From: a virus
IMG/VR virus record: IMGVR_UViG_3300045051_000918
Coordinates: 1 to 47,063 of that record
DNA length: 47,063 nt
Strand: one strand, 5' to 3'
Both the position numbers and the translations under genes were made by a program. The notes beneath the pieces were generated by a model. The model was not told where the DNA came from and did not search any database. It saw only the letters and a list, made by a program, of their open reading frames with translations. Numbering within the stretch: position 1 is the stretch's first letter; every line of letters starts with the position of its first letter. Of this stretch, positions 478 through 47,063 are shown in pieces.

Positions 478-480
478 TAT

Positions 481-553
481 GTGTCCGGTGGGATTTGAAC
501 CCACGATTTGCAGCTTCACAAGCTGCCGGCTTGGACCGCTCGCCTACGGACAC
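481..553 (-). tRNA. tRNA-His (anticodon GTG)
   Basis: On the minus strand this folds as a full 73-base cloverleaf. The acceptor is GTGTCCG/CGGACAC, the anticodon arm is GCAGC-TTGTGAA-GCTGC and the T arm is CGTGGG-type with a TTCAAAT loop. The loop gives anticodon GTG, reading CAC/CAU. The base before G1 is G, as expected for tRNA-His, but the discriminator (complement of 480) is A rather than the usual bacterial C73. A73 is known mainly from alphaproteobacterial tRNA-His. CCA is not encoded. Confidence 0.9.
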
Positions 554-570
554 CACTTGCTGGGTAATGG

Positions 571-643
571 ATGGGACGGCAGGCATCGAACCTGCAACCG
601 ACGGCATCAAAAACCGCTGCGCTACCAATTGCGCTACGTCCCA
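571..643 (-). tRNA. tRNA-Gln (anticodon TTG)
   Basis: This minus-strand cloverleaf has acceptor TGGGACG/CGTCCCA. The D arm is GCGC-AATTGGTA-GCGC, the anticodon stem GCGGT/GCCGT has wobble end pairs, and the T arm is GCAGG-TTCGATG-CCTGC. The loop TTTTGAT gives anticodon TTG for CAA. The U1-A72 pair is typical of bacterial tRNA-Gln and supports the identity. The discriminator would be U, which is unusual. It lies 17 bases upstream of tRNA-His, so the two are probably co-transcribed. Confidence 0.88.
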
Positions 644-6767: not shown

Positions 6768-7138
6768 ACAGCGCACGCTACAGTGAGTGGCGGGTCTGGA
6801 AGCGGCTCGACTACCGGGCTCAGGCCATTTGCAAGATTCACGGTCAAACGCCCAACGATCTCGTCGAGGTCGCGCTTGAGGAGTACATACAGCGGATCGT
6901 AAAGGACTGGTTCAACGTCGAGACCTATGCAGTGGTCACGGAAATCAGGTCCAATCCCGAATGGGCAGCTGTCGCATATGAGGCCGATGACTATGTGGAA
7001 TTCTGCCGATTGATGACCGACCGCGGCATCACGCACACTCGAAGCGGTGTCTACATCAAAGAGCGAAAGATCGCCCGCATGCGGGTGAATATCGAGATCA
7101 GAAAGAGGAACAGGTTTCATGACGAAAAGGAAGATTAA
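6755..7138 (+). CDS. Hypothetical protein, 127 aa
   Basis: A GTG start was chosen because GGAGG lies seven bases upstream. The longer frame from 6653 lies almost wholly within the previous gene. The first 55 residues are helical and basic (YSEWRVWKRLDYRAQAICKI), the centre is acidic and the tail is basic again. It may be a DNA-binding accessory for the recombinase encoded directly downstream with a 20-base overlap, but no family is recognised. Confidence 0.7.
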   Translation: MSEVNSARYSEWRVWKRLDYRAQAICKIHGQTPNDLVEVALEEYIQRIVKDWFNVETYAVVTEIRSNPEWAAVAYEADDYVEFCRLMTDRGITHTRSGVYIKERKIARMRVNIEIRKRNRFHDEKED

Positions 7139-7850
7139 AAAACCAAGGCCCACGCCTGTCGAAGTCTTTTACGTGCGCAAGTCGGAAAAGCTCGTCAACG
7201 GCAGCGATGAGACCGAATATGAAAACCAGCTTTCCCGGATGCGGGAGCGCTGGGGCGACCTGCCCGTTCACACGGAAAACATCTCTGGCGGCAAAAAGCG
7301 GGCGGTGCTGAACCGTCTGCTCGAAACCCTTCCCGAGGGGTCGACAATCTATGTGGCGCATATCGATCGCCTCAGCCGTGCCGGGATCTTTGACTTCCTC
7401 TCGATCGTGGAGCAGGCACGGGAGCGCAAGATCTCGGTGATCTCGATGCACGATGGGGACACGGACCTGCTGGATCAGAACCCACTCTTTTTGGCCATGA
7501 AAGCCTACATCGCAGAGCAGGAGCGGCATGCAACCTCGCGCCGTATGAAAGATGCGATCAAAAGCATCCGTTACAAAAAATACGACGGCAAGTGGGGCGG
7601 CGGTCGCGCCAAGGAACTCGGCACCCATAACTGGGGGACAAAGCCTGTCAATCCCCTCTGGGAAGAGGCCATGCCCTACCTTCTTGAGCTTCGGGCACAG
7701 GGCCTTTCCTATGCAAAAATCGCTGAACGCGCGAGCGAGAAATACGGTGAGAAGTTTTCCACTGCGCACGTCCACCGGCTTTTGACTAAGCGTATTTCAG
7801 AGACTTCAGATAGGCTTCCCACTCCCAGGAATGAGCAGACACTTCATTGA
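7119..7850 (+). CDS. Serine recombinase (resolvase/invertase family), 243 aa
   Basis: The N-terminal catalytic domain covers about residues 14-165. Candidate nucleophile Ser22 lies in YVRKSE, and the DRLSR motif (Asp83, Arg84, Arg87) matches the family's active-site arginines. The C-terminal 65 residues hold an HTH-like segment around LSYAKIAERASEKY. At 243 residues it is close to small resolvases and invertases and too short for a large serine integrase. It could resolve multimers, invert DNA or integrate the phage. I see no obvious att or crossover sites next to it. Its end overlaps the convergent exonuclease gene by 65 bases. Confidence 0.88.
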   Translation: MTKRKIKKPRPTPVEVFYVRKSEKLVNGSDETEYENQLSRMRERWGDLPVHTENISGGKKRAVLNRLLETLPEGSTIYVAHIDRLSRAGIFDFLSIVEQARERKISVISMHDGDTDLLDQNPLFLAMKAYIAEQERHATSRRMKDAIKSIRYKKYDGKWGGGRAKELGTHNWGTKPVNPLWEEAMPYLLELRAQGLSYAKIAERASEKYGEKFSTAHVHRLLTKRISETSDRLPTPRNEQTLH

Positions 7851-8661
7851 CCGCCATGGGATATCCCGGCCAGACGCCAGTTCTCTGGCATTCCTGGTAG
7901 AGCCTCACTGCCCCCATCATTTCATGCCTTGCGATTGTCGCAAGGTCCTGCTTGATCGTATAGATCGCAGAGCAGTATGGGGGCGAGGTTTCCACGGCCA
8001 CGATCGTGAACGTCGGGGCATGCCCGGTGATCGCCTCAACAAGATCCATGTACCAGACAGCCTGCCAGTGATATCGATAGCTTCGGATGTCACGCTCGAA
8101 CTGCCGCTTGCTCGCGCATTTGGTGGACTTAAGGTCAATGATCTGGTGGGCCTTTGGCCGGTAGTAATCGAGCTGGGCCTTGGCGTGTACGTCATGCACA
8201 TATCCAAAGCACATACGCTCAGCAACGCCGTCCTGGAAAATCTCTGAGATGACTTCGCTCTTTCGCACAGCGTCACGCATTTCGAGTGCCGCATCGTAGT
8301 GATCGGCCAGAAGCATTTCCATCCCCAGCTGTCGTGCGTATGCCTCTGCATTGTCCCACTCAGCTTTCCCGGCTTTGGTCCTGCGATTGACATCGGGCGC
8401 CTTGATGTAAAGCTCATGAAAACGCATTGGCTCAAGTATCGCAACGTGCGCTGCGCGACCCAGTTTCTTCGGGTCGGTATCGGGACGGGGGTATCGTCTA
8501 TTATATCGGTAGTGTGCCGGTGAATGTTCGGCTATGAGCTTAAGTTCAGACTGTGAAAGGGCTTCGTGGGATCTATAGATATCGGAAGGCATTTGTCCGA
8601 GAAACATGACGCCAGACTGTTTATTCAACTCGACCCTTAAATCTTCGACTGTCTTGATCAT
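7786..8661 (-). CDS. RecE/exonuclease VIII-like PD-(D/E)XK nuclease, 291 aa
   Basis: Family features visible are a conserved GRAAH (His72), then Asp165 in AQLDYY and the DLK motif at 176-178, which together form the expected PD-(D/E)XK metal site. Such nucleases resect one strand of a DNA end so that an annealing protein can load. It is encoded opposite to its presumed partner ERF, with start codons 72 bases apart, so a shared divergent promoter region is likely. The ribosome site is weak (GAGCGG). Its 3' end overlaps the recombinase gene. Confidence 0.88.
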   Translation of the reverse strand: MIKTVEDLRVELNKQSGVMFLGQMPSDIYRSHEALSQSELKLIAEHSPAHYRYNRRYPRPDTDPKKLGRAAHVAILEPMRFHELYIKAPDVNRRTKAGKAEWDNAEAYARQLGMEMLLADHYDAALEMRDAVRKSEVISEIFQDGVAERMCFGYVHDVHAKAQLDYYRPKAHQIIDLKSTKCASKRQFERDIRSYRYHWQAVWYMDLVEAITGHAPTFTIVAVETSPPYCSAIYTIKQDLATIARHEMMGAVRLYQECQRTGVWPGYPMAVNEVSAHSWEWEAYLKSLKYA

Positions 8662-8733
8662 TTTCCGCTCTTGATTTTTTAAGTTTCTCTGAGCATAGTT
8701 TTCCCATCACCCCCTTACAAGAGAAAATAATTC
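8662..8733. promoter_or_regulatory. Divergent control region between nuclease and ERF genes
   Basis: The 72-bp gap holds TTGATT followed after 18 bases by ATAGTT on the plus strand. AT-rich sequence reads the other way too. It must contain the start signals for both genes. No clear palindromic operator is visible. Confidence 0.4.
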
Positions 8734-9303
8734 ATGACACAGCTTCAAAGTCAGGAGCTGGGTGAACTCGCGACTGCATGGGCAAAAGCTCAGGCGGAGA
8801 TGCCGGTCATCACCCTCGATAAGCAGGTTTCCTACAAGAACATCAACTTCGAGTATGCATCGCTCTCGAACATCATCCATGCTACCAAGCCGATCCTCGC
8901 AAAGCATGGCCTGAGCATTCTTCAGTTCCCCAGCTCGAACGGTGAAACGGTGACAGTCGGCACTCGCATCCTTCACATATCGGGCCAGTTCATCGACTCG
9001 GAAGTCACAGCAACACTTGCCAATCCCAAGGACCCCAAGGAGCTGGGAAGTATGGTGAGCTACCTTCGTAGGTACTCATATGGGAGCATTTGCGCGATTG
9101 CGCTCGATGGTGACTACGATGCCACGACGATTGCTGAAAAATATCTCGGCACATCTGAGCAGAAGGTCTGGCTTCGGGACCTGCTCCTGAGCAGGGGTCT
9201 CGACCAAGCCGCCATGCGCGCCGTCAGCGATGAAATGATCCGGGGCAACTACGAAGCAACTGAAGAAGCAGCATATAAAGCTATGGAGGTACTTCGCAAA
9301 TGA
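8734..9303 (+). CDS. erf: ERF-family single-strand annealing protein, 189 aa
   Basis: The central part, around INFEYASLSNIIHATKPIL, GLSILQFP and LGSMVSYLRRYSYGSICAIA, matches the ERF superfamily (P22 Erf-like). These proteins form rings on single-stranded DNA and anneal homologous strands. The C-terminal 60 residues are helical and acidic. It should work with the adjacent RecE-like nuclease in phage recombination and genome circularisation. Its stop overlaps the next start (ATGA), giving a coupled recombination operon. Confidence 0.92.
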   Translation: MTQLQSQELGELATAWAKAQAEMPVITLDKQVSYKNINFEYASLSNIIHATKPILAKHGLSILQFPSSNGETVTVGTRILHISGQFIDSEVTATLANPKDPKELGSMVSYLRRYSYGSICAIALDGDYDATTIAEKYLGTSEQKVWLRDLLLSRGLDQAAMRAVSDEMIRGNYEATEEAAYKAMEVLRK

Positions 9304-9668
9304 CAGACAATGCGGGAAAAACTTATGTTAATAAGCTCCCAAACGATGTCGCTGTAAAGCTTTCCGTCGAGAAGGTTTTCAAGAGGGACGAGCAAGACAA
9401 TGCGTTTTCGATTGAATGCCGGATTTGCGACGGTGAACTCGTTGGAAACCTGATCACGCTTTACTTCTACCGCAATAAGCTCGCTGGAGGCCCCCGCAAG
9501 GATACAGCGCAATTGCTCGAGAAACTGAATCCTGGGAAGAAAGCTGAAAACATTCCGAGCTACCTCTTACAGGGGAAAATTTTTGAGACAACTCCCTGGC
9601 ATCCCGAAAGCAGCAGGTTTCAGATGTTCGGACGATTCAAATATATCGGCACAAACGACGTTTTTTGA
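9300..9668 (+). CDS. Hypothetical protein in the ERF operon, 122 aa
   Basis: The gene is coupled to erf by ATGA. The product appears beta-rich, with charged and aromatic residues suited to an OB-like fold (VKLSVEKVFKRDEQ, GELVGNLITLYFY), so a single-stranded DNA-binding or recombination-mediator role is plausible. That is inference from position and composition. I recognise no exact family. Confidence 0.7.
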   Translation: MTDNAGKTYVNKLPNDVAVKLSVEKVFKRDEQDNAFSIECRICDGELVGNLITLYFYRNKLAGGPRKDTAQLLEKLNPGKKAENIPSYLLQGKIFETTPWHPESSRFQMFGRFKYIGTNDVF

Positions 9669-9676
9669 GGAAGTTT

Positions 9677-9916
9677 ATGAGCACAAGGTTTGATTACGTA
9701 AAGTACGATGAAATCGCCATGACCAAGCAGTGCAACGCCAAAAATTTTTGCACCACCCTTGAGTCATTTATTGAGCAACAGCTACCGAATGGGCGGGCCA
9801 AAAGCCTTGCTTTGACGAAGCTTGAGGAAGTTTACATGTGGATTGGCAAAGCGATCAGAGATGAGCAGGTCGAGCAACGGATTGCGGTTCTTCAGGAAGA
9901 GCGATCCAACGAATGA
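9677..9916 (+). CDS. Acb2/Tad1-domain anti-defence protein, 79 aa
   Basis: Residues 40-62 contain GRAKSLALTKLEE followed by YMWIGKAIRD, the helical-hairpin signature I associate with the Acb2/Tad1 family. Those phage proteins bind and sequester cyclic nucleotides made by CBASS or cyclic ADP-ribose signals made by Thoeris, so the host effector is not activated. The N-terminus YVKYDEIAMTKQ also fits. Start 9677 has GAGGA upstream. It sits in the early recombination operon, suitable for early expression. Which signal it binds cannot be told from sequence. Confidence 0.8.
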   Translation: MSTRFDYVKYDEIAMTKQCNAKNFCTTLESFIEQQLPNGRAKSLALTKLEEVYMWIGKAIRDEQVEQRIAVLQEERSNE

Positions 9917-10413
9917 GTTTGAAAATTCCAGTCCCCTCTTCCTTGCTTTGGAGTGGGACTTATGTCGGTCGTGTATTCCCGTTAGCGAGGCCCCGTCTGT
10001 CGGGGCTTCGCATCTACCAGCCACTCGAAGAGCAGAAAGCCCTGCGAGCATGGATGCAGTCGAGACGCCCTGAAATTCCCTTTCGTTGTGATCTCTGGGT
10101 CGAGTGCCTGTTCATCTTCTCAAGCAAGTCTTTGGCCGATTGCGACAATCTTCTCAAAGCGGTGAACGACGGACTCCAAAGTTCCGGGATTATCGGCAAT
10201 GATCGGCAAGTTGTTGGTGGAAGCTTTATGCGGGCATTTGGCGATCACGACGAGTGTCAGATAAAAATCAGAGAGGCACTCTACTATGATCCCACGTCCG
10301 TACCAAATGGAAGCGGTCGACGCCGTATCAAGCGCTCTAAAATTTCACAGAAAAGTCGGGGCCGTTCTGCCCACGGGGTCCGGAAAGAGCCTGGTCGAGA
10401 CCCTGCTGATTGA
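9913..10413 (+). CDS. rusA: RusA-like Holliday junction resolvase, 166 aa
   Basis: The motif DCDNLLKAVNDGL supplies Asp76 and Asp78, and Asp97 follows in GNDRQV. This matches the three catalytic aspartates and spacing of RusA. The enzyme cuts four-way DNA junctions from recombination or replication. The core ends near residue 125. The last 40 residues, very basic, overlap the next gene by 128 bases and are probably an extension read in another frame. It starts by ATGA overlap with the Acb2-like gene. Confidence 0.88.
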   Translation: MSLKIPVPSSLLWSGTYVGRVFPLARPRLSGLRIYQPLEEQKALRAWMQSRRPEIPFRCDLWVECLFIFSSKSLADCDNLLKAVNDGLQSSGIIGNDRQVVGGSFMRAFGDHDECQIKIREALYYDPTSVPNGSGRRRIKRSKISQKSRGRSAHGVRKEPGRDPAD

Positions 10414-11860
10414 TCGGCTCTGCGATGAGCTTCGATTCAACCAGTGCGTGCTCGTGGTCTCCCATCTCACGGATGTCGTTGACCAGCTCCATATGGCATA
10501 CGTTAAGCACGGTCGTTATGCCAAACAGTCAATGCGTCTGAATGCCATAGATAAGCCAAAAATCACCACAAAAGTCCTTTTTGGCACCATTCAGGGCCTT
10601 ACAACGTCCCGAAGCAGGTCATATTGGACCGATGATCCCATGCGAAAAGACGTGGTCAGCGTTGTGATCGACGAGGCCCATCAGTTTGGGACAGATGGAT
10701 ACGGTATATTGGACCATGAGCTTTTCCCCATGGCAAAGGTCGTCGGATTCAGTGCGACACCATACCGCGCCAATCAATACTCATTCGCGCAATTTGACAC
10801 AGTCCCGTTTGCGATCGATTCGCAAACCCTGATCGACCAGGGTTACCTCGTCCGCCCTCACCTATTCCAGCTCCGCTTCGAGGGCACGGAAACGGGCGAG
10901 CGCCTCGCGAGCGTAATCAAGGTCTGGAGGGAACGCGAGCGTGAGCGGAACCTTGTGTCGGTCGTCTACCTTCGGACGACTGCAGAGGCTCAGGAGATGC
11001 GTCTCGTAGCTGAGCAGGAAGGGATCAAGGTCGACTTCGTTTCCGGGGAGTCGCCGGAAGCCTTCTGCCGCGCCCTTTATGCACGGGCCAGGGCTGGCGA
11101 AGTCGAGATGATCGTGAATTGCCGAAAGCTCGAAACCGGGATCGATATCCCGAACATTGGCTCGGTTTTCATGCCTTTTGGAACGGGATCGGTGGTCACC
11201 TACCTGCAGCGCATAGGCCGCGCCCTGAGGCCGTTCAAGGGGAAGGATCTCGCGCACATTTACGTGATGGGCGATGCGCCAAGCATTGAAAAAGGCACCT
11301 GGCAGAAGGTTCATGCAGAAGCGCTGAGAGCGAAAAAACCCCTCGATCCGATCGAAAAACTCAGCGAGGAGCTGTCCGAGCTCATCGAGGACTCGGCGCC
11401 AGCGCATCGCATTGCCTGGACCCAGGCCGCCATAGAGGCATGTGAGAGGCTTCAGAGCGGTAACATGCGCACTCTGGCAGAGCTGATCGCTGAGAAGCGG
11501 TTCCCCCCGAAGTACGCCAGAGCGATACAGGAAATCACCAGGCGCATCAAGCTCGACCGGATCCCCGAGGGTGCCTTTGAAAAACCCCTCTCAGAATCGC
11601 AAAATTCGGTTCTGGTGAAGCGGCATGGGTTCCCCCAGGAACATGTCCAAAAACTCAGTTCCGGCGAAGCAGGGGCGATTTTAGGGGCCATTTCGGATTT
11701 CTATGCCAGATCGCCTTGGATCCTGCAGAGCGGGCCGCACGCCGGAAAGCACATCGCAGACACACCCACCATGTACCGCAGGCATTTGAAGGACCCGGCG
11801 AATCGGATCCTTTGGCAGAAATGGATTAAAGCCGGGAGGCCCCATGGAGAAGAATCCTGA
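10286..11860 (+). CDS. SF2 DEAD/DEAH-box DNA helicase, 524 aa
   Basis: All main superfamily 2 motifs are present: Q-like RPYQ at 4-7, Walker A GAVLPTGSGKS at 25-35, DEAH at 129-132, SATP at 156-159 and QRIGRALRP at 308-315. The first half is the ATPase core, and the last 200 residues are a family-specific C-terminal region. Such phage helicases act in replication or recombination, often near resolvases and annealing proteins as here. The start lies inside rusA, and the 3' end overlaps the small membrane protein gene. Confidence 0.92.
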   Translation: MIPRPYQMEAVDAVSSALKFHRKVGAVLPTGSGKSLVETLLIDRLCDELRFNQCVLVVSHLTDVVDQLHMAYVKHGRYAKQSMRLNAIDKPKITTKVLFGTIQGLTTSRSRSYWTDDPMRKDVVSVVIDEAHQFGTDGYGILDHELFPMAKVVGFSATPYRANQYSFAQFDTVPFAIDSQTLIDQGYLVRPHLFQLRFEGTETGERLASVIKVWRERERERNLVSVVYLRTTAEAQEMRLVAEQEGIKVDFVSGESPEAFCRALYARARAGEVEMIVNCRKLETGIDIPNIGSVFMPFGTGSVVTYLQRIGRALRPFKGKDLAHIYVMGDAPSIEKGTWQKVHAEALRAKKPLDPIEKLSEELSELIEDSAPAHRIAWTQAAIEACERLQSGNMRTLAELIAEKRFPPKYARAIQEITRRIKLDRIPEGAFEKPLSESQNSVLVKRHGFPQEHVQKLSSGEAGAILGAISDFYARSPWILQSGPHAGKHIADTPTMYRRHLKDPANRILWQKWIKAGRPHGEES

Positions 11861-15488: not shown

Positions 15489-15517
15489 ATAAAAAGGCCC
15501 CCACCAAAGATGGGGGC
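15489..15517 (-). terminator. Late-operon rho-independent terminator
   Basis: On the minus strand GCCCCCA and TGGGGGC form the stem and CTTTTTATTT follows. It lies 43 bases after the vWA gene and is the natural end of the late operon. Confidence 0.85.
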
Positions 15518-15539
15518 GTCAAACTAAGGAACATGCCGT

Positions 15540-15565
15540 TCAATCAATCAATCAATCAATCAATC
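15540..15565 (-). repeat. Tetranucleotide repeat (GATT)n at the vWA stop codon
   Basis: On the minus strand GATT is repeated about six times, and the first repeat supplies the stop codon of the vWA gene (GAT TGA). Such tracts change length easily, but only read-through would alter this protein. Confidence 0.85.
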
Positions 15566-16174
15566 CGAAATTGCCCCTGCAAGAGCTTCGGTCAATGTCT
15601 TGTCTCCCAGTTCGTCCATGGTCAGGGTATCGACGATATCGAACTTGGCGTCTTTCAGATCGTCATCGAGTTGCTTCAGAAAGTGCCGTGCTCCCTGGTC
15701 GTTGCCGACCTGCACGAAAAGAATCCCGTATTCCTCGTCGCGGTCCAGCAGATTGCTGAACGAGGTTATGGCTTTCTTCACGGCCGACTGATCATCGGGA
15801 CTTCCATCCGTTACGACGACTGCGATCTCACCATTTGGCTTCAGTTCGCCAGCTTTCTTGCGCTTCTGAAAGTCTGAGAAGATCGCCGTTAAAACTCCAT
15901 CAAGATTTGTGGAGCCGTTCGGTTCGACTTCCTCAAAGATGCGCGCCACTTGTGCCGAATCAGTGACATTATCAAAACGGCGATGCTTACCAGCAAAAGT
16001 ATATACCGTGAGACCGTCCGGGTCATAGGTCGCGGCCTTTCGTGCAAGTGCTGTGGCTGCTTCTGCAGCGGACTCCCAACGGGATCTGCCGCCTGTCTGG
16101 TCTTTGGTTCCCATGCTTCCGGAGCTATCGACGACAAACACGAAGTCCCGGTCTTTAAGCTGAACTGGTTCCAT
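15560..16174 (-). CDS. von Willebrand A-domain protein, 204 aa
   Basis: The whole protein is one vWA domain. The metal-ion site (MIDAS) is complete: Asp16, Ser18 and Ser20 in DSSGS, Thr89 in GSTNLDG and Asp123 in VTDGSPDD. vWA domains bind protein partners through the metal; the closest resemblance is to TerY-type cytosolic bacterial proteins. It has no signal peptide. It follows the coiled-coil gene by four bases at the end of the late operon, so the two probably act together. A virion or defence-related role is open. Confidence 0.9.
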   Translation of the reverse strand: MEPVQLKDRDFVFVVDSSGSMGTKDQTGGRSRWESAAEAATALARKAATYDPDGLTVYTFAGKHRRFDNVTDSAQVARIFEEVEPNGSTNLDGVLTAIFSDFQKRKKAGELKPNGEIAVVVTDGSPDDQSAVKKAITSFSNLLDRDEEYGILFVQVGNDQGARHFLKQLDDDLKDAKFDIVDTLTMDELGDKTLTEALAGAISD

Positions 16175-16177
16175 TCA

Positions 16178-17110
16178 TTACCTCTTTTGCTGTGAGTCAG
16201 ATGACCCTTGGGTTACGATAATTTGCTTACTGGCACTGTCGACAGCTCTCTGGGCGATCTCCTGAACCTTCTGGGTCGCGTCCTTGGCAATCGCAGAGAG
16301 CTGAATGTTTTGCTGAGACAAGTCGTCGACTTTGCCCTGAAGAAGCTGTATCTGCTGGCATGCAAGGTTATGGCTGTTCTGCAGGTTGGCTTTCTCGATC
16401 TGGAATGTAAATTCGAGTTCCTTCTTTTGGGACGCGACAGCAATGGCAACTGTCCTATCGACTTCTTTCTTTTTATCGTCGTCATAGGTCTGAAGCCGTG
16501 CCTTGTTCTTATTGAATTCCTCGGTCCATTCCTGGATCCATTTTTCCTTGGCCAGGATTCTGTCTTCCCTTTCCATAAAGGCTTTCAGGAATTCCTGCTC
16601 GCGCTGCTTTTTGTGGTCGTTCCACTGGTCCTCGTCCTTTTTTCTGGCCATGTCGCGGTTGTAGGCATAGATGTCGTCGTCCCGCTTTCGCTGGAGCTGA
16701 AGCTCCTTTTTCTGGTCCTCGTATTGACGGAGCCAAGCCTTCTTCTCCTCGTCAAACTTGAGGCGCTCCGCTTCATTTGCGGTCATGAGTGCATCGAGGC
16801 TTTCGGCTTCCGCCTTTATTCCGTACAGTTCTTCGAGGTTCTTGCGTTCAAAGGCGATAGCCTCCTGCACCACCTTGAAGTTCTCAAGCTGGGAAGACAC
16901 AAGGGATGCAATGGAATCGAGAGCCGAGGATATCGTGATCTTATAGCTGCCGATCGTCGTCACGAGATCGTTATGATTCAGTTCCTTCGCCTGGGATACA
17001 GACTTTGTTCCCTGCTCACGGGCCTTTTTTTTCTGAGCTGTTTCCTTTCCCTTGCTGGCCGAAAGATTATCAGTGTGCGCTTCGGAGACCTTTTTTGCCG
17101 TCGATGTCAT
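16178..17110 (-). CDS. Long coiled-coil protein, 310 aa
   Basis: AAGGAG precedes the ATG. After a Lys/Ser-rich N-terminus, residues about 45-100 include an SSALDSIASLVSSQLENF helix and ERKNLEELYGI. Residues 110-300 are a nearly continuous charged coiled coil. The ELYGI block recalls chromosomal proteins found beside vWA proteins, from memory and without a family name. It is very likely a partner of the downstream vWA protein, as scaffold or filament. Confidence 0.75.
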   Translation of the reverse strand: MTSTAKKVSEAHTDNLSASKGKETAQKKKAREQGTKSVSQAKELNHNDLVTTIGSYKITISSALDSIASLVSSQLENFKVVQEAIAFERKNLEELYGIKAEAESLDALMTANEAERLKFDEEKKAWLRQYEDQKKELQLQRKRDDDIYAYNRDMARKKDEDQWNDHKKQREQEFLKAFMEREDRILAKEKWIQEWTEEFNKNKARLQTYDDDKKKEVDRTVAIAVASQKKELEFTFQIEKANLQNSHNLACQQIQLLQGKVDDLSQQNIQLSAIAKDATQKVQEIAQRAVDSASKQIIVTQGSSDSQQKR

Positions 17111-17345
17111 GACTGCTCCTTCTCAAAGGGTGATCGTGTCTATAAGCTTCCCAGCATGTTCTTGAGCAAAACGTCCGGGGAGATTTCCTCGAGTGAACTG
17201 ATCGCTCGAAAACGATATTGCACTGCAGGCAGGTCGTCATGCGTTTAACGCGACGCTTACATGCGAGCGAGCAGCAACCTTCAAATTCCTCGTAAACCCG
17301 ATCGGGGATTTGCATCTCGCAAATGTTGCAGCGCACGAACTTCAT
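17070..17345 (-). CDS. Double zinc-knuckle protein, 91 aa
   Basis: Two CxxC-CxxxC sets are visible: Cys6/Cys9 with Cys25/Cys29, and Cys39/Cys42 with Cys60/Cys64. This suggests two treble-clef-like zinc sites. The last third is basic. It overlaps the coiled-coil gene by 41 bases, so the three genes 17345-15560 form a unit. It could be a nucleic-acid or protein-binding adaptor. The family is not recognised. Confidence 0.7.
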   Translation of the reverse strand: MKFVRCNICEMQIPDRVYEEFEGCCSLACKRRVKRMTTCLQCNIVFERSVHSRKSPRTFCSRTCWEAYRHDHPLRRSSHDIDGKKGLRSAH

Positions 17346-17356
17346 GGTTAGACTCC

Positions 17357-17397
17357 GAAAAGAAAACCCCGTGTACCCCTCCGCTCAGGGGCCACGG
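17357..17397 (-). terminator. Terminator-like hairpin after the internal virion genes
   Basis: On the minus strand CCGTG...CACGG encloses CCCCT/AGGGG, and GGTTTTCTTTT follows. It separates the virion genes from the zinc-knuckle/coiled-coil/vWA trio, which may therefore be expressed separately or by read-through. Confidence 0.65.
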
Positions 17398-17482
17398 TCG
17401 CATTTTGGGATGTCAACTCTCTATATCTGATCTGTATTGCAGTAGGCATGTTGTACCAATGATGCCGGGGAAGGTCGAGTTG

Positions 17483-19171
17483 CTACTCGGTACGGCTATC
17501 CTGCGCTTCCTGCATTCTTCGCAGGTATTCTTCGGCGGAAATATTATAAAGCGGGTAACCAATAAATTGGGGATCGCTTGCATTACTCGTGGACATCGTC
17601 ACAGCAGCAGGACGCAGGATTGAATCCATGAGCCCAGGTCCACCGCGACTCGGAGCAACTGCCAGCTGCTTGAAGATGTTGGGGCCAAAGACATCGCGGA
17701 TAAAGCCTACTGTGGCCAGTTCCGGGGACTGCGAGGCCATCCCGATCATGGTCGCATAGCTTGGAGTCTTGAGGCCAAAATGGGTTTCATTTGTCGCGCG
17801 CTTGATCTTCGCAAGCGTGTCGCCGTCTCCATATTTCTCTGCGAAGTCCTTCAGGATCTGCTGGGTCGTCTCCTTCTTTCTGATCTGCCGGAGCCGGTTG
17901 AAAGTCGGGTCCACTGCCTCGTAGCGAACTTCTTTACCAGGACCGAACTTCAGGGCTTTTCTGAGCTTTTCAACTGCATCGGTGTCCGTTGCAACCGACT
18001 CCATTACGTCTGCGTATTGAGTATTCTTTTTCCCAAGCGTTTCATTGATTGCTCCACGAGCCATTTTATAGGCGTCGGCCACGAGTTTATTGGCGCCGGT
18101 TGAGTTCCGGTCATACTTCGCCATGGTTTCAAGGCTCGCATAAAACCGCTGAAGCTCCTTCTCTGTGAGGTATCCCTTGTCCCCAGCGAGGCTTTGCAAA
18201 AATGCCAGATTGCTTTTCAGCTGCTGCTCAACCTGAGGCCCGAACTGGCTTCTGAGTCTGCCAGAGACGGGATCCTTGAAGAGGACATCCCGCTTCGTGA
18301 ACTTGTCGAGGATCATCATTGTCAGGTCCCGTGGACTCAGCGTCGGGTTGTCCGTGAGCTTATCAAGCGCTTGCTGCTTTGCCTGCGAGGCCCCTTCGGA
18401 AACCTTATTTGCCATGGGAATGATATTGTCTTTGGCGATCTCCTCAATCGTTTGCGCCTTGCCCCGATAGACGTGTGGGTCATCCAGGACTTCCTTGGCG
18501 ACCTGCTGGGGCACCTTGAAGACGGGCTTTGCGATTCGCTCCATGGTCCACTTTGCGGCCTCGGTCAGGGGCTTTTTAACAGGACTCAGAAGGGCTTTCC
18601 CAGCAGCTGATCCAGCCTTGGCGAGACCAAGCCCCATGAGACCTTCGACTGCGCCTTTGCCCGCATCCAAGGCTGCGATCTTTGGACCTGCCAATGGGTC
18701 CTCATACTCGGGATCTGAGTATGGGCGGGTTCCGTAGCCCATGCCCATGACGGCGCCTTGAGCAGCAGCCAATTGCGCTGCCCGAAGAAGGGCTGGTATA
18801 CGGCCAAGCTTTGCGACGTTCCCAACACCAAGGCCAGGAACGAACATCGTCCCAACCGAGCCAGCGACTTCGCCGCCAAGCATCTTTCCTGGAGCCAGTC
18901 GCCGGTATCGCTCGATCTCTTTTTGCTTTTCATTCCAAACGTCGCGGTAGTCCCTGCCAGATAACGCTGCCTCATACTTTGCTGCGAGTTCGTCGGAAAA
19001 GCCAAACGTTACGCCCTGCATGAGGCCCGTGAAAAAGGGGTCGTCTTCTTCCGTGAGCTGGTCGACTGTAGCCTGAGCACCCTTCGATGGAGCCCTTTGC
19101 CAGCCATCACCATCAGCCTTTGCCGCAGCGGGAGCCGATTTGGGCTTTGCCCTTTGCCATTCATCAGCCAT
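17483..19171 (-). CDS. Putative internal virion (ejection) protein, 562 aa
   Basis: The protein starts with two WQRA repeats in a disordered Lys/Ala region. A Gly/Ala-rich amphipathic stretch follows (residues about 90-205, GEVAGSVGTMFVPGLG and similar). The rest is helical. Gly/Ala-rich membrane-active segments are typical of podoviral proteins that leave the capsid with DNA and form a channel. Last gene before a terminator; GAGGAG precedes its start. The role is inferred from composition and position among virion genes. Confidence 0.6.
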   Translation of the reverse strand: MADEWQRAKPKSAPAAAKADGDGWQRAPSKGAQATVDQLTEEDDPFFTGLMQGVTFGFSDELAAKYEAALSGRDYRDVWNEKQKEIERYRRLAPGKMLGGEVAGSVGTMFVPGLGVGNVAKLGRIPALLRAAQLAAAQGAVMGMGYGTRPYSDPEYEDPLAGPKIAALDAGKGAVEGLMGLGLAKAGSAAGKALLSPVKKPLTEAAKWTMERIAKPVFKVPQQVAKEVLDDPHVYRGKAQTIEEIAKDNIIPMANKVSEGASQAKQQALDKLTDNPTLSPRDLTMMILDKFTKRDVLFKDPVSGRLRSQFGPQVEQQLKSNLAFLQSLAGDKGYLTEKELQRFYASLETMAKYDRNSTGANKLVADAYKMARGAINETLGKKNTQYADVMESVATDTDAVEKLRKALKFGPGKEVRYEAVDPTFNRLRQIRKKETTQQILKDFAEKYGDGDTLAKIKRATNETHFGLKTPSYATMIGMASQSPELATVGFIRDVFGPNIFKQLAVAPSRGGPGLMDSILRPAAVTMSTSNASDPQFIGYPLYNISAEEYLRRMQEAQDSRTE

Positions 19172-22823: not shown

Positions 22824-23531
22824 TTAGAATTCATCGCCATAGGCTTCCTGAAGAGCCCGCATATCAGGCTCCAGGTAAACGTCTTCATCGTCATCCGTGA
22901 GACGGGACAGCGAGTTCTTCAGCTTGTCTTCCTGCTTGTCGAGGCGCTTGCTCCAGACTTCCACCAGGGGATCGCCGATCTTTTCGAGCACCGATTTTTT
23001 CACATGAGCAAGGATATATTGGATCCGAAGACCTTTCTCCAAAACGTCTTCATCATCTTCAAGGCGCTTTGCCTGCCTGATATACCACACGCGAAACTGA
23101 TTGGATGACGACTCACGGATAGGCGGGTAGATGTAGATCGCTTGGCCCAGGCTGGTTGTGTTCACGAGCCGATAGCGATAGCTGTCATTTGCTGAGACGT
23201 TTGTGATCTCGTCGAGATCGATCTTTCCGAGCTTATAGGAATCGCCCATGTTGTCGGCGTCGTAGCCGTTTTCAGAAAAGAAAACCCGGCGTAGCCTGCT
23301 CTCGTAAAGGTCTTCAGGGAGGTCGATCGTCTCGTCACCTTCTTCCACCGTGAGATCCGCGTAAGTGAGAAAGAAGTCCGAGAAGCAGTCAATGATGATC
23401 TCTTCGGCATCGTCGATCGCGTCCTCGATGAACTGCTTTATATCGTCAGTCGTGACGAAGTTTTCCTCGTGGAGGTCGAGGTCGTCCTGGACTTTGCTCA
23501 CGATTCTTGAAAGCGGCCATTCGCTTGCCAT
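22824..23531 (-). CDS. Probable head-tail adaptor protein, 235 aa
   Basis: Acidic and helical, with TTDDIKQFIEDAIDDAEEII at residues 26-45, the kind of N-terminal helix bundle seen in podoviral adaptor proteins (T7 gp11 / P22 gp4-like role). The start at 23531 has GGGAG seven bases upstream. An in-frame ATG at 23666 would add 45 residues but has no good ribosome site. The adaptor joins the portal to the tail nozzle. Identity is by fold impression and position. Confidence 0.6.
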   Translation of the reverse strand: MASEWPLSRIVSKVQDDLDLHEENFVTTDDIKQFIEDAIDDAEEIIIDCFSDFFLTYADLTVEEGDETIDLPEDLYESRLRRVFFSENGYDADNMGDSYKLGKIDLDEITNVSANDSYRYRLVNTTSLGQAIYIYPPIRESSSNQFRVWYIRQAKRLEDDEDVLEKGLRIQYILAHVKKSVLEKIGDPLVEVWSKRLDKQEDKLKNSLSRLTDDDEDVYLEPDMRALQEAYGDEF

Positions 23532-23880
23532 TGCTTTCTCCCGGCGCACGTAAAGAGTTTGAGTCTCGACTGCTTGACCGGACTTGACCTTGACTGGATT
23601 GAATATGCGGGTGGAATAGACATGCTGGCGCACCTGGAAGTCGATCGACTGCGCCGTTAGATTCATAGCTTACATTATCTTTCGGGTCAGAAATACCCCC
23701 GCCCCTCGGGGAAATTTGGCAAGTTTCAGTGAAGGATAAACCTTTTCGGACAAAACGGGGGGCGATGTGGGCAGGGGCAGAAAAGGTCAGCAGATCTAAG
23801 CAGAAATTGTAATAGGGATCGCTGGCTCCGATGAAAGAGCTGGCGAAGAGACGGCGAGAAGAAAAACTGCGATGCAGAAC

Positions 23881-32407: not shown

Positions 32408-33679
32408 TTAGTTGAATGCATAGTTTGCGAAACTATGGATCGCGACAGCCGTGTAAGGCTTGCGGTAGATGAAGTCGCCGACCAGACGGATATCACTGAT
32501 ATACGTGTAACCGGAAGTTGCACGTTTGGTGTAATACTTCAGTCCGTCTGGAGATGTCATGAGGGTGAAGGGATCGCGACCGGTTTTGAAGTCGAGGAAC
32601 TGAGGATCGATACCAGCGATCCATTCGTCATCAAAGTGACGAATACCAACCAGAGTACAGGATCCAGCCACGCCACCAACTTCGATAGTCGAAGCGTCGG
32701 CATAGTTGACTTGTGGCTTGATGTTTTTATATGCACCCGAGCCAGCTTCGATGAGCTTGAGACAAGCGGAATAGTGCTTGTAGCTCATGAGGAAGACCTT
32801 TGGTCGCGCTCCGCGCTGGAAGCCTTTGCGCATGGCGTCAAATATCATGTTCAGGACATCGGACTTTGTAATTGCCGATCCGCCCCAGTCGCCAGTTGTC
32901 GCAGTGGCATCATAGAGAACAGGCTGGGAGAAGGTGGAGTCGGTTTTGGTGATGTTACAGAAGGTGTCCGAACCACCGAGGGACGCTGGCAGCAGCATGT
33001 CCTTGAGGGATCCGAAGTAGGTGGTGTTACCGCCATCGATATAGACCTTGGTATCAGCTTCCACCAGACCAGCAAGGTCAACTGCAGTGGAGCCCCCACG
33101 AGTCGTCACGAAGCTGATAACGCCTGTATTTTTGTTGATCGCTTTCACGTAACCAGTAGCAGTCGTACTGCCGTCAGTCACGATCAGCTTTTGGCCGATA
33201 TTGAAACGTTCTGGATGCTTGACCGCGAGGACATCGGTGGCAGCGTCAAACGCCGTTGCCACGGTATCGATCGCCTTACCGCCCAGGACCTGAATGGAAA
33301 TTGTTTGTTTGAAAAAGTCCATCAGCTGGTCGAGCTGATCTGGAAGCACTTTGAGGAAGTTTTGGGTCGAGATCTTACCATGGTCGAAAAGGTCGCGGGA
33401 GTTGAACGCGATCGTACCGTAGGCTTCCACGTAACCCGACAGGTACCCACGGAGGTAGGTCGCGAAGTCGATGTCAGTGTCATCAGTCAGACCGCCCATC
33501 TTCACAGACGATGCAACCGATTGCTGGAAGGGAACGATGAGCTTTCCGCCCTGCCAGGACTTGTCCCAGTTACAGTTCTGAAGGAGCCAGTTCTCCTTCT
33601 TCATTTCTTCTTCAAGGAGGTCATAGGGAAGATATTCATTCAGCATGTCGCTGAATGTAGAAGCTTTCGTCGTCGTCAT
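32408..33679 (-). CDS. Major capsid protein, 423 aa
   Basis: Length, central Thr/Gly-rich beta regions and position directly after the scaffold gene support a major capsid protein of the HK97-fold type used by P22-like podoviruses. Visible segments include GGKLIVPFQQSVASSVKMGGL in the N-terminal part and RPKVFLMSYKHYSACLKLIEAG near residues 293-314. It assembles the procapsid on the scaffold. No exact match to a named phage is claimed. Confidence 0.75.
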   Translation of the reverse strand: MTTTKASTFSDMLNEYLPYDLLEEEMKKENWLLQNCNWDKSWQGGKLIVPFQQSVASSVKMGGLTDDTDIDFATYLRGYLSGYVEAYGTIAFNSRDLFDHGKISTQNFLKVLPDQLDQLMDFFKQTISIQVLGGKAIDTVATAFDAATDVLAVKHPERFNIGQKLIVTDGSTTATGYVKAINKNTGVISFVTTRGGSTAVDLAGLVEADTKVYIDGGNTTYFGSLKDMLLPASLGGSDTFCNITKTDSTFSQPVLYDATATTGDWGGSAITKSDVLNMIFDAMRKGFQRGARPKVFLMSYKHYSACLKLIEAGSGAYKNIKPQVNYADASTIEVGGVAGSCTLVGIRHFDDEWIAGIDPQFLDFKTGRDPFTLMTSPDGLKYYTKRATSGYTYISDIRLVGDFIYRKPYTAVAIHSFANYAFN

Positions 33680-36779: not shown

Positions 36780-37050
36780 TCTGAGCCTTCCTTAAGTAAT
36801 CCTCAAAAGCCTCGGGGTCGTTGATCATAAGCGTTTGAAGCTCAAGATCACTGAGATCGGGGTCTTCCTCGATTTCTCGCTCGATTTGGTCTCGATTTGG
36901 ATTTGACTTGGGAAGTGCTGCTTGAGCCGGGGCAGTGGCCGAAGCGCTTGGGTCAAACGTGATGTCCAGTTTTTCCCACTTGATTCTCGATACTCCCGCA
37001 TTCTTGCAAGCCTCGAGCAATTTGACAACCTCTTCCAAACACTGGCTCAT
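36733..37050 (-). CDS. Small protein between terminase and portal, 105 aa
   Basis: Residues 1-30 form a helix with a Cys. An Ala/Pro-rich linker follows, then a second acidic helical region. It is coupled to the terminase end (ATGA overlap of four bases) and overlaps the portal start by 47 bases. No family is recognised. Position suggests a packaging or portal-assembly helper. Confidence 0.65.
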   Translation of the reverse strand: MSQCLEEVVKLLEACKNAGVSRIKWEKLDITFDPSASATAPAQAALPKSNPNRDQIEREIEEDPDLSDLELQTLMINDPEAFEDYLRKAQNVKNNIRSQRDVFPQ

Positions 37051-38630
37051 AACATCTCCTCAAAATATGAAATGGCTTCCGCCAGATCTTCCCCTGGCTC
37101 ATCACCGAGAGACCGCATTGGGTCATCCTTCCGGTCAATGCCCTTGTAGAAAGCCAGTCTCGGGTTCATCGCCTGGAGGACTTTTTCGTGAACAGCCTTG
37201 GATTCGCTTTCTTTGAGAGCTTTCAAACGGAACGGTATCAGGGAAATCGCGTACCGCAGGGCATCCGTGCAGTCATCGATTCTGTGTCTTTTTGGGGTTT
37301 CCTCGGAAGTCGACTGAAGCTCTGTGCAGAGCTGCTGGGCGTCGGGACTTGTCCCAAGTATCACCTTCAGCTGCTCGTCTTTGAAAAGGGAATTGCAGAG
37401 GTTGATCCCTATCTCGTGCGACTTCTCTGCCTTGTGCAGCACGATCTGCTCGCGGGCCGCGAGGGTAAAGAGGTCTGTAGCCCCCCAGTCACCAAAGGCC
37501 CAGTGTCGACCAAATCTCGGCATCATCATCTTATATCGAAGCAGAAGATCGCCTTGCGTCATGCGGCGTTTTCTTGACCACCAGACATCGACGACGCGAG
37601 CATTTTCAAATGCGGGGCAAACCTTCACATGGATGATCGCCGAGCTATGGCCGTACTCCCCGCCCGATCCAAAGTCGAGCCCGACGTAAGATCGCCAGCC
37701 CTCCATATTGGTAACGCCAGCGGGTTCGGTGTTTTTTTCGCGATTGAATTCCTCGAATAGCAGGCCCGAGCTTTTGACAAAGCGACCATAGATCCGCCGC
37801 TGAATCTCCTTCTCGTTACGGTACTTCGGGATAAGCTCTGTTTTGATATACTCTTCGGTCCATATACGGGACGGTGTGCCGTCTGCATAGAAGAGGCAAT
37901 CGAAGAGGGAAACCTGCCTTTTCCAGGCTTTCTTGAAGGTTTCATCGGGAGTGCCCTGGCGCTCCATGCAATCGTAGAGAAACTTTTGCCCTAACGTTGC
38001 AGTAAATACACATGACGTGTGACCGCTTCCAATCGATTGGCGAGCCTGGGTTCTAACCAGAAGTTCGTCAAAATGCTCCTGCGGGACTTCCTCGTCCAGG
38101 AACACCGCGTCAGCCGTATGGGCCTGCAGAACTGTCGGTTTCTGCGAGTAGAAGCGGAAGTAACACGTAACGCCCGTCGCAAAAGTAATCGACTCAATCG
38201 TGCCCTTGTCGCTGTATTCCTCTTTCCATCCCCATCTTGGGTCATTCTTCATCTCCCCGCGCGGCAGGTACTCCTTGACCCATTTCTCCTCGAATTCGAC
38301 AGTCGCAAGCTTGCTCTCAGGATAGAGATAAAGAAATGTGCGGGGCCTGCGATTTGGAAACCACTTTGGCCAGAGATCCGTTCGCAGAGCCATGTTTATG
38401 CATTTGATAATCTGGATTGATGACTTACCAATTTGGTTTGCTGCGGTCAAAAACGCGAGGAGCTTTCGATCGATCGTCTCTGTACCGACCAGCAAAAAGT
38501 CACGCTGCCACTGGTAGAATGGATGCGAATAGCAGCTATTCCAGTCCGAGGAGATATAGAACGGAAGGTTTTCCCGCATGTATTCGCGGGCGGCGAGCAG
38601 CTGCTGCTGCTCACGGCTCGTCGTCACCAC
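37047..38630 (-). CDS. terL: Terminase large subunit, 527 aa
   Basis: ATPase: Walker A variant AANQIGKS at 63-70 and Walker B VFLDEE at 176-181. Nuclease: Asp319 in VGLDFGS, Asp381 in GDWG and acidic residues at 452-456 in IDDCTDALRY. It packages DNA into the procapsid and cuts the concatemer. Start is GTG, preceded by GGAGG, and overlaps the small-subunit gene by 20 bases. This is the most reliable landmark of the late operon. Confidence 0.93.
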   Translation of the reverse strand: MVTTSREQQQLLAAREYMRENLPFYISSDWNSCYSHPFYQWQRDFLLVGTETIDRKLLAFLTAANQIGKSSIQIIKCINMALRTDLWPKWFPNRRPRTFLYLYPESKLATVEFEEKWVKEYLPRGEMKNDPRWGWKEEYSDKGTIESITFATGVTCYFRFYSQKPTVLQAHTADAVFLDEEVPQEHFDELLVRTQARQSIGSGHTSCVFTATLGQKFLYDCMERQGTPDETFKKAWKRQVSLFDCLFYADGTPSRIWTEEYIKTELIPKYRNEKEIQRRIYGRFVKSSGLLFEEFNREKNTEPAGVTNMEGWRSYVGLDFGSGGEYGHSSAIIHVKVCPAFENARVVDVWWSRKRRMTQGDLLLRYKMMMPRFGRHWAFGDWGATDLFTLAAREQIVLHKAEKSHEIGINLCNSLFKDEQLKVILGTSPDAQQLCTELQSTSEETPKRHRIDDCTDALRYAISLIPFRLKALKESESKAVHEKVLQAMNPRLAFYKGIDRKDDPMRSLGDEPGEDLAEAISYFEEML

Positions 38631-42176: not shown

Positions 42177-42400
42177 TGCGACTAATCATAGTACTTGGAA
42201 ACCTTGCTGCGATTATCCTTCCGGTGGTTTTCATCCTATGGATATCAGGCAAAATCGTTGGAGGAAGAATGCGGTTTTTTTGTCGAATATGGATTCACGA
42301 CTGGGAGCCCTGGCAGGACTTTGGTCAAGTGCAAACAAAATGGCAATTCTCGTATTGCAAACATTGTCGGATTAAAAAGGAGCGCTACAGTGGGCGTTAA
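42173..42400 (+). CDS. Membrane protein with DUF1660-like tail, 75 aa
   Basis: Residues 3-27 form one transmembrane helix. The rest, from about residue 33, reads MRFFCRIWIHDWEPWQDFG...YCKHCRIKK, resembling the DUF1660 phage zinc motif (C...HxW...CxxC). A fusion of a membrane anchor with this motif is unusual. The DUF1660 assignment is from memory. It overlaps the SPFH gene by 11 bases. Confidence 0.6.
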   Translation: MMRLIIVLGNLAAIILPVVFILWISGKIVGGRMRFFCRIWIHDWEPWQDFGQVQTKWQFSYCKHCRIKKERYSGR

Positions 42401-43166
42401 TATACGTGTCGTAAGCATGATTTTTTCAATGACATTCCTTGCTGGATGCGGATGTGAACAGGTCGACACCGGCTATATCGGAATCGAAACGAGATTTGGG
42501 GAAATCCAAGGGAAACCGCTTCCGCCAGGACTCCATTTTTATAACCCCTTCACTTCTGGCATCAAGGAAAAGGAAGTCAGGGAAGTAAAATTTGAGGACA
42601 AGGCGGTCAGCTTTACTCGCGACACCCAGCGGGTTGACATCACGTTCGCGCTTACCCTTTATCCGCAAGCTGACAAAATGGATATTATATGGAAACAGTT
42701 CGGCGACGAGTGGCAGAAAAAGCTTGTTCCTCAAGCCGTGCAGAATGCAATTAAGGACGTGGTCGGGCAGTATATCGCTGATGATTTGGTCGGCAAAAGG
42801 GATGAGGCGCGAACCAAAGCCGAATTGGAAATCCAGAAAAATCTTTCAGTAAATGGGATCATTGCGACGCGTCTCGACTTTGTGAACCTGGATTTTGACG
42901 ACGCCTATGAAAAAGCTGTGGAAGCGAAAGTGGTCGCTGTTCAAAAGGCTGCCGAGGCGAAAAACAAGACTGTTGAAATCGAGGAAAAGGCCCGACAAAC
43001 CGTCCTGAGTGCAGAAGCTGAGGCAAAGGCCATGCAGATAAAAAGCAACGCACTGAAGGAAAACAAGAGTCTTGTCGAGTTCAATGCCGTTGAGAAATGG
43101 GACGGGAAACTGCCGCAATACATGATGGGCAGCACGGTGCCTTTTATCAAGCTGGATGGTAAATGA
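42390..43166 (+). CDS. SPFH/prohibitin-like lipoprotein, 258 aa
   Basis: The GTG start has GGAG eight bases upstream. A signal with lipobox Leu17-Ala18-Gly19-Cys20 makes it a lipoprotein. The rest has the order of a prohibitin (SPFH/band 7) domain: VDTGYIGIETRFGEIQGKPL..PGLHFYNPF, then a long heptad-rich helix (AAEAKNKTVEIEEKARQTVL). SPFH proteins assemble rings at membranes. A lipoprotein form in a phage is unusual and could remodel or guard the envelope. Confidence 0.85.
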   Translation: MGVNIRVVSMIFSMTFLAGCGCEQVDTGYIGIETRFGEIQGKPLPPGLHFYNPFTSGIKEKEVREVKFEDKAVSFTRDTQRVDITFALTLYPQADKMDIIWKQFGDEWQKKLVPQAVQNAIKDVVGQYIADDLVGKRDEARTKAELEIQKNLSVNGIIATRLDFVNLDFDDAYEKAVEAKVVAVQKAAEAKNKTVEIEEKARQTVLSAEAEAKAMQIKSNALKENKSLVEFNAVEKWDGKLPQYMMGSTVPFIKLDGK

Positions 43167-45268: not shown

Positions 45269-45297
45269 TTGACGGTAACCCGCGCCCGTCCTAGTGT
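45269..45297 (+). promoter_or_regulatory. Putative sigma70-type promoter for the CPBP gene
   Basis: TTGACG is followed after 17 bases by TAGTGT, and the gene starts 27 bases later with AAGGA in between. The -35 is good, the -10 weak. Confidence 0.45.
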
Positions 45298-45323
45298 GCA
45301 GGGGCTTCATACAAGGATCATTA

Positions 45324-46070
45324 ATGGATTTACGCAAAACCCACCTCTTCACTCTCGGCGTGTTCTCGGCGCATTTGAGCTATATTGCCCTGCTGCTGAA
45401 ATTCAGTCCGGGCATGCCTGCCACGACTTTTTATTTTGCCGACCTGGGTGTCACGTATATTGCTATTGCCGTCATTTTGAAGATCAAATGGGGGCAGAAC
45501 ATCAATCGCCCGACGATTTCCCCGCTCGCGTCGATCCTTTTCGTCCTCGGAGCGTTGTCTCTCGGTTTGATCCTCAAGGGCGCTTGGTATGAGCTTTTGC
45601 AATCCATGGCGAGCGAGCCTCAAAAGTATGTGGACCCGATGCTTTATAAAGAGGCGCCAGCACAAAAGTCCCTTTTTCAGAATATCTGGACCATGCTTCT
45701 GGCTCCCCTGAACGAGGAGATTCTCTATCGCTTCGGACTTTTATCGTCGCTCTCGTTTTTTGTGAAACGCCCGCTGGCACTAGTCTTGTCAGCTGCTGTA
45801 TTCGCGACTGCTCACTTTTGGGTTTACCCGGCGAGCATGATGATTCCGCTCTTTGTCACCGGCCTTATCCTCGGAGTTGTCTACCTCACCCTCGGACTCC
45901 GCTGGTCGATGCTGCTTCATATCATCTTCAACTCGAAGCCTCTGATTGACTCCACGCTGCTATCAAACGAGACAACTTTCACAGTCTTTTTCGCGTTGGC
46001 TTTTGTTGGAATTTGGGTGTTCATCTCGAAATCTTTCAAAGTCCGGCGTGCTGTCTTCGACCTTCAGTAA
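45324..46070 (+). CDS. CPBP-family (CAAX-type) intramembrane metalloprotease, 248 aa
   Basis: The hallmark motifs are present: Glu131-Glu132 and Arg136 in NEEILYRFG, FATAH ending in His164, and His199 with Asn203 in HIIFN. Six or more hydrophobic segments make it an integral membrane protein. CPBP (Abi/Rce1-like) proteases cut prenyl-type or other membrane substrates; some protect against bacteriocins or take part in immunity. Start 45324 has AAGGA seven bases upstream. It is followed 14 bases later by a secreted-protein gene. Confidence 0.9.
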   Translation: MDLRKTHLFTLGVFSAHLSYIALLLKFSPGMPATTFYFADLGVTYIAIAVILKIKWGQNINRPTISPLASILFVLGALSLGLILKGAWYELLQSMASEPQKYVDPMLYKEAPAQKSLFQNIWTMLLAPLNEEILYRFGLLSSLSFFVKRPLALVLSAAVFATAHFWVYPASMMIPLFVTGLILGVVYLTLGLRWSMLLHIIFNSKPLIDSTLLSNETTFTVFFALAFVGIWVFISKSFKVRRAVFDLQ

Positions 46071-46936: not shown

Positions 46937-47063
46937 TGTCGGCCAGTCTCCCAGTCTTTCCCGGTGTCCGCTCAACGGTACTTTTACATCGAACTTTCTT
47001 GAGCATTCCCGATGAATCAGCGCTGACTGCATCTCTGCGATATCGCTTTGCCAAGGCTTCCTA
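46937..47063. repeat. Terminal direct repeat, right copy
   Basis: This is the exact second copy of bases 1-127. Joining the copies makes the non-coding tRNA/RNA region continuous from about 46763 through the contig end to 1341. Confidence 0.95.

Follow-up and report, generated by a model that had tools for sequence, protein, structure and literature searches.

A set of three linked genes closes the late operon of a phage known from IMG/VR record IMGVR_UViG_3300045051_000918, and its position raises the question of whether these genes belong to the virion or are carried as accessory cargo, and of what such cargo would do. The first-pass annotation of this stretch of DNA, hereafter the window (the whole 47,063 nucleotides analysed), had described a double zinc protein, a 310-residue coiled coil and a complete vWA domain at 15560-17345, and each of these descriptions was borne out. 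The open reading frames are present on the minus strand, beginning with the gene for the zinc protein (17070..17345, minus strand), whose 91-aa product shows two C-x2-C ... C-x3-C zinc motifs. It is followed by the gene for a rod-like coiled-coil protein of 310 aa belonging to the phrog_29668 family (16178..17110, minus strand) and by a stand-alone vWA gene (15560..16174, minus strand) encoding 204 aa with a complete MIDAS, a member of the TerF-like vWA family. The zinc and coil genes overlap by 41 nt, the coil stop codon and the vWA start are separated by 3 nt, and each of the three starts is accompanied by a purine-rich Shine-Dalgarno-like sequence (CGGAG, AGAAGGAG and AGAGGT).

The record is classed as linear and carries an exact 127-bp direct repeat at both window ends (1-127 and 46937-47063), a terminal overlap of k-mer size, as is typical of circular assemblies. 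The window is therefore probably a complete circular assembly, with a phage genome of ~46.9 kb. Its late genes lie on the minus strand and include the large terminase (37047-38630; phrog_2, E 5e-15), a portal-like gene of 721 aa, the SU10-like major capsid protein (32408-33679; E 1.6e-4), the SU10 adaptor (22824-23666; E 4e-9) and, as the last virion-like gene, one encoding a putative ejection or internal protein of 562 aa (17483..19171; phrog_5880, 1.5e-13). A PADLOC match of this 562-aa protein to BrxA (E 4e-4) had no passing stretch and was disregarded. The trio comes last on the same strand, 3′ of the virion genes, and beyond it oppositely directed genes begin another operon. Elsewhere, the window holds tRNA-His and tRNA-Gln genes at its left end (480-643, minus strand), a recombination region at 7119-11860 (serine resolvase, a DUF3799 nuclease on the opposite strand, ERF annealing protein, RusA and a RadD-like helicase) and a gene for a CPBP/Rce1-like CAAX membrane protease (45294-46070, plus strand; E 1e-13).

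The earlier description of the trio as following a terminator that ends the virion genes also held. A terminator-like hairpin with a U-rich tail (UUUUCUUUU) lies at 17358..17402 on the minus strand, past the end of the last virion gene and upstream of the zinc gene (-19.9 kcal/mol, z -2.3); 2 of 200 shuffles were equally good, and a simple consensus terminator scan missed it. The stronger of the two hairpins flanking the trio (z -3.3) is the intrinsic terminator found 3′ of the vWA gene at 15497..15517 on the minus strand, which consists of a 9-pair GC-rich stem followed by CTTTTTATTT. The zinc ATG is located ~20 nt past the U-tract of the upstream hairpin, a gap that leaves no room for a promoter, so that read-through or an upstream element must drive the trio. 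A tetranucleotide repeat (CAAT/ATTG) with about six copies was also observed at window positions 15539-15566; it starts in the final codons of the vWA gene, and the vWA stop codon TGA falls within its first copy.

A search with the terminase retrieved 11 related phage records, the longer of which have terminase, portal, capsid and adaptor in common at 24-42% identity. The vWA was found in none of the 11, several of them short fragments in which absence means little, and the coil profile had no match in the three related records searched with it. In four related phages (G003, G028, G032 and G035), the late operon's end gene encodes 558-644 aa and occupies the same place as the 562-aa gene of the window, a homology assigned by eye and by position, the search itself falling below E 1e-3 significance. 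In most of these four, one small gene (89-102 aa) comes after the 558-644-aa gene, and then the operon ends and an opposing or next operon begins. A podovirus-like group (L003-L010 and L132-L149) was also observed to have SU10-like capsids and the virion core of the window in common; no close relative of this group was present in the collection of phage records, where terminase matches stayed below 26% identity. Because the vWA is missing from the related phages, the trio is to be regarded as cargo and not as virion core, and because related late operons end after the 558-644-aa gene, with its small gene, the trio sits at an accessory position at the late-operon end. Its assignment as accessory cargo outside the virion core is thus well supported.

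The strand and direction that the trio shares with the late genes would also fit late-expressed vWA and coiled-coil proteins with a scaffolding or decorating role in the particle, but the hairpin stands between the trio and the virion genes. Such a virion part or assembly factor is unlikely, given that the related phages sharing this virion core all lack the vWA and that full-length related phages end their late operon without the trio. Viral vWA folds do match the window vWA, and MoxR-vWA in the assembly of an archaeal virus, proposed also in jumbo phages (PMC7824862), offers a precedent; nevertheless, no MoxR-type AAA+ protein was present among the Pfam-scanned window ORFs, a set that includes the long coding-strand ORFs, and a MoxR-vWA chaperone pair was dropped for this reason.

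Analysis of the window vWA protein revealed matches to Pfam VWA_2 (E 1.5e-13) and phrog_5359 (4e-11), and its MIDAS residues (D16-S18-S20, T89 and D123) are conserved across the family. The AlphaFold2 model (pLDDT 92) aligned with the vWA domain of RGLG1 (6k88) in a fold comparison (Z 19.1, rmsd 2.5, 181 residues); the fold matches were generic vWA domains only (plant RGLG1, proteasome Rpn10 and ANTXR2) and are uninformative on function. The vWA-TerF-like family PF10138 was matched by 26 of 27 sampled family members (best E 3.7e-12), the sole exception being the window's own vWA, with no match at E ≤ 1. Cyanobacterial relatives, common in chromosomes and plasmids, are similar to the window vWA over the full length (44-57% identity) and have the same stand-alone architecture of ~200 aa; they differ from it in being chromosomal or plasmid-borne, with coil pairs elsewhere in the genome. 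These genes are often in tandem (more than one copy in 42 of 100 loci), and in 49 of 100 loci a small gene lies downstream, the representative of which is a Slr1339-family salt stress protein. In a phylogenetic tree, the window vWA grouped with viral contig L018 (91/78), and the cyanobacterial rows were adjacent with support that is not firm.

The first-pass annotation had regarded a vWA gene as odd for a phage, a view contradicted by close relatives in at least 21 IMG/VR contigs and by the Ter genes, TerF among them, that jumbo phages carry (PMC7824862). The relatives of vWA and coil in IMG/VR surfaced with alignment-based scans only, single-sequence scans with the vWA, coil or zinc protein having returned none. 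Most of the phage vWA relatives are located in early or recombination regions, with no Ter genes nearby. The same vWA query retrieved the vWA of Streptomyces phage TunaTartare, which matched PF10138 at 1.7e-22; this TerF-like vWA gene (5779-6603 of L002) was observed within an extensive array of tRNA genes, with a gene for a Ro-like RNA-binding protein a few kb away.

The coiled-coil protein matched phrog_29668 over its second half (E 1.2e-10), and gp268 of Bacillus phage G, a member of this family, aligned to 95% of the window coil at 21% identity. In the AlphaFold2 model, residues 56-300 (~245 residues) form a single helix, with a pLDDT of 78 from only 4 sequences; this shape fits a rod and is uninformative on oligomeric state. 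HMMs built from cyanobacterial relatives alone matched the window coil at E 8e-15 and 1e-8, and none of 200 heptad-preserving shuffles of the coil scored at E ≤ 10 with them, which indicates that membership in the coil family exceeds coiled-coil noise. Weak Pfam and NCBIfam matches to DUF3577, ZapB and STY4534 were taken as such noise, and TelA was rejected, Pfam TelA matching neither the window coil at E ≤ 1 nor its relatives at E ≤ 0.01. The window coil thus resembles phrog_29668 (phage G gp268 and its relatives, of unknown function) by profile and by alignment, and differs from its members in a shorter central region and in a vWA partner, which was found with no other phage member. The phage coils were too diverged for placement in a tree. 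A plasmid search with the coil of a Lysinibacillus phage as query returned no coil relative, and one with the window coil gave a single weak cyanobacterial match. In cyanobacteria, a profile search found tandem pairs of full-length coil relatives in 16 of 25 vWA-bearing genomes. Pairs at four loci (L159, L161, L164 and L165) lie near XRE regulators, with IrrE/M78-like peptidase genes also present at all of these except L164; these neighbours suggest stress control or a regulated response.

The cysteines of the zinc protein (6, 9, 25 and 29, and 39, 42, 60 and 64) make up two treble-clef-like units of the FCS/CCS type. Residues 36-74 weakly matched an HNH-endonuclease PHROG (E 0.011), in the zinc portion of that family. 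No relative of this protein was found in phages, plasmids or IMG/VR, the best plasmid match being at E 0.8, and the trio as a conserved unit therefore lacks support. Of the linked set proposed at first, its place outside the virion core, 3′ of both the final virion gene and the hairpin, was retained, and its status as a conserved three-gene unit was not.

We then considered whether the vWA and coil families are associated with each other. Among 146 cyanobacterial genomes, the coil was present in 28 (threshold E 1e-10) and the vWA in 54 (threshold E 1e-30, in the same genomes), and all 28 coil genomes were vWA-positive (Fisher 2e-15, uncorrected for shared ancestry and genome size). Within the small subset listed in full and for genomes of at least 3.3 Mb, the coil-vWA linkage was 4/7 vs 0/8 (p 0.026). 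In those cyanobacterial loci that were inspected, the vWA and coil genes did not adjoin each other, so that the earlier statement that vWA and coiled-coil pairs occur in bacterial chromosomes is correct in the phyletic sense and not as gene adjacency. In other phages the two families were not seen together, the outcome (genes that rarely co-occur) which the first-pass annotation had named as refuting its proposal: the coil was present in 0 of 21 vWA-bearing phage records, and no vWA was detected with Pfam VWA_2 in four coil-bearing phage records, a weak test given that this model failed to detect the established TunaTartare vWA as well.

Ter systems combine a TerF-type vWA and TelA, which are thought to form sub-membrane structures, with TerC in the membrane and TerD, which binds ligands. 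Both families of the window adjoin Ter genes elsewhere in phages. A vWA relative is directly followed by TerC in L021/G009 and likewise in L022/G010, both of them phage contigs. Contig G004 holds a second copy of the vWA gene (L169, 3789-4388), with TerC directly upstream; this adjacency in three contigs ties the vWA family to Ter genes in phages, although most phage members are not adjacent to them. In contig G006, TerC is ~17 kb away. As for the coil, the relative in Lysinibacillus phage LysYB1 directly precedes TerD, TerD and TerC. A Band_7/SPFH (stomatin/prohibitin-like) gene was also observed in the window (42195-43166, plus strand; E 2e-24) and in phage contigs G008 and G009; in G009, vWA and TerC follow it after a few genes.

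The window itself lacked both TerD (no match to PF02342, nor in phmmer searches with two phage TerDs) and TerC (no match to PF03741 or by phmmer), and since the genome is seemingly complete, its trio is not a full Ter operon. What it shares with Ter systems is the TerF-like vWA family and the Ter genes that adjoin each of the two families in other phages, together with a coiled-coil partner resembling the proposed structural place of TelA. It differs from them in lacking TerC, TerD, TerB and TelA, in a stand-alone vWA with no TerD domain and in the additional orphan zinc protein. Ter operons are implicated in the inhibition of phages and in resistance to colicins (PMC8123226), and an action against superinfecting phages has been proposed for the Ter genes that phages carry (PMC7824862). 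The abbreviated Ter operons of Caulobacter jumbo phages (TerD, TerC, TerF and TelA) resemble the window in their phage-borne TerF-type vWA, for which an anti-superinfection role is proposed in the same text; the window differs in being a ~47-kb phage without TerC/TerD, and the coil family is not named in the available part of that source.

Altogether, these data lead us to a tentative reading, held at somewhat less than even confidence, in which the trio would be an accessory, moron-type Ter-like envelope or stress module, perhaps for superinfection exclusion, based on a vWA-rod partnership and not needed for the virion. A small podovirus-like phage would carry the trio at its late-strand end as a moron-type operon. 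The vWA would act as a TerF-like metal-dependent protein-binding domain, with the long coiled-coil rod as its proposed physical partner, and late in infection both may assemble beneath the infected cell's envelope, a location suggested by analogy with Ter systems. Such a scaffold could render the cell less permissive to competing phage or to envelope stress, the zinc protein might serve as adaptor or regulator, and TerC-family proteins, a widespread group (9 of 14 control genomes matched), could come from the host. At first, exclusion, counter-defence and virion assembly had been offered as equal options. An envelope, stress or exclusion role would now be favoured because of the Ter links of the vWA and coil families, and a core virion role disfavoured because the vWA is absent from related phages. 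Several observations speak against the Ter-like module: the phage is without TerC/TerD, its own vWA misses PF10138, no other phage record found has both families, coil and vWA do not adjoin each other at the cyanobacterial loci examined, and most phage vWA relatives lie away from Ter genes.

The chromosomal location of the close vWA relatives (44-57% identity) in cyanobacteria, which hold coil pairs too, could also mean that the phage proteins are decoys, mimicking a vWA and coiled-coil surveillance or stress module of the host and blocking the host's own complex, and the XRE-type regulators beside several coil pairs, some with IrrE/M78 peptidase genes, do suggest a regulated response. However, the vWA and the coil are full length and the vWA keeps all its MIDAS residues, which a decoy could lose, the vWA family adjoins TerC in other phages, and PADLOC gave no family at E ≤ 0.1 for any trio protein, so that counter-defence of this type seems improbable. 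The latter result also led us to drop a known anti-phage defence system, no defence-system match of the trio having been obtained. A chance gathering of three independent hitch-hikers (zinc protein, coil and vWA), having their own functions or none, would agree with a pair seen in no other phage, a zinc protein without relatives and the tendency of phage accessory sites to gather unrelated genes, but is doubtful in view of the tight operon with overlapping or abutting genes, the independent nesting of the coil within vWA-positive cyanobacteria and the independent adjacency of both families to Ter genes.

Under the preferred reading of an accessory Ter-like module, the link between coil and vWA, previously unrecognised, constitutes together with the Ter neighbourhood of both families the new content of this analysis. 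We propose, with more reserve than for the module itself, that phrog_29668 and the cyanobacterial coil pairs may be dedicated partners of TerF-like vWA proteins in a sub-membrane machine independent of TerC/TerD, serving as a phage exclusion or stress device. A functionally uncharacterised coil family with members in Bacillus phages and many cyanobacteria is tied to a TerF-like vWA by a strict 28/28 phyletic pattern, which provides a concrete vWA-coil interaction to check. How Ter systems work has long been a puzzle, and a phage version of two or three genes without TerC/TerD would be their smallest testable unit.
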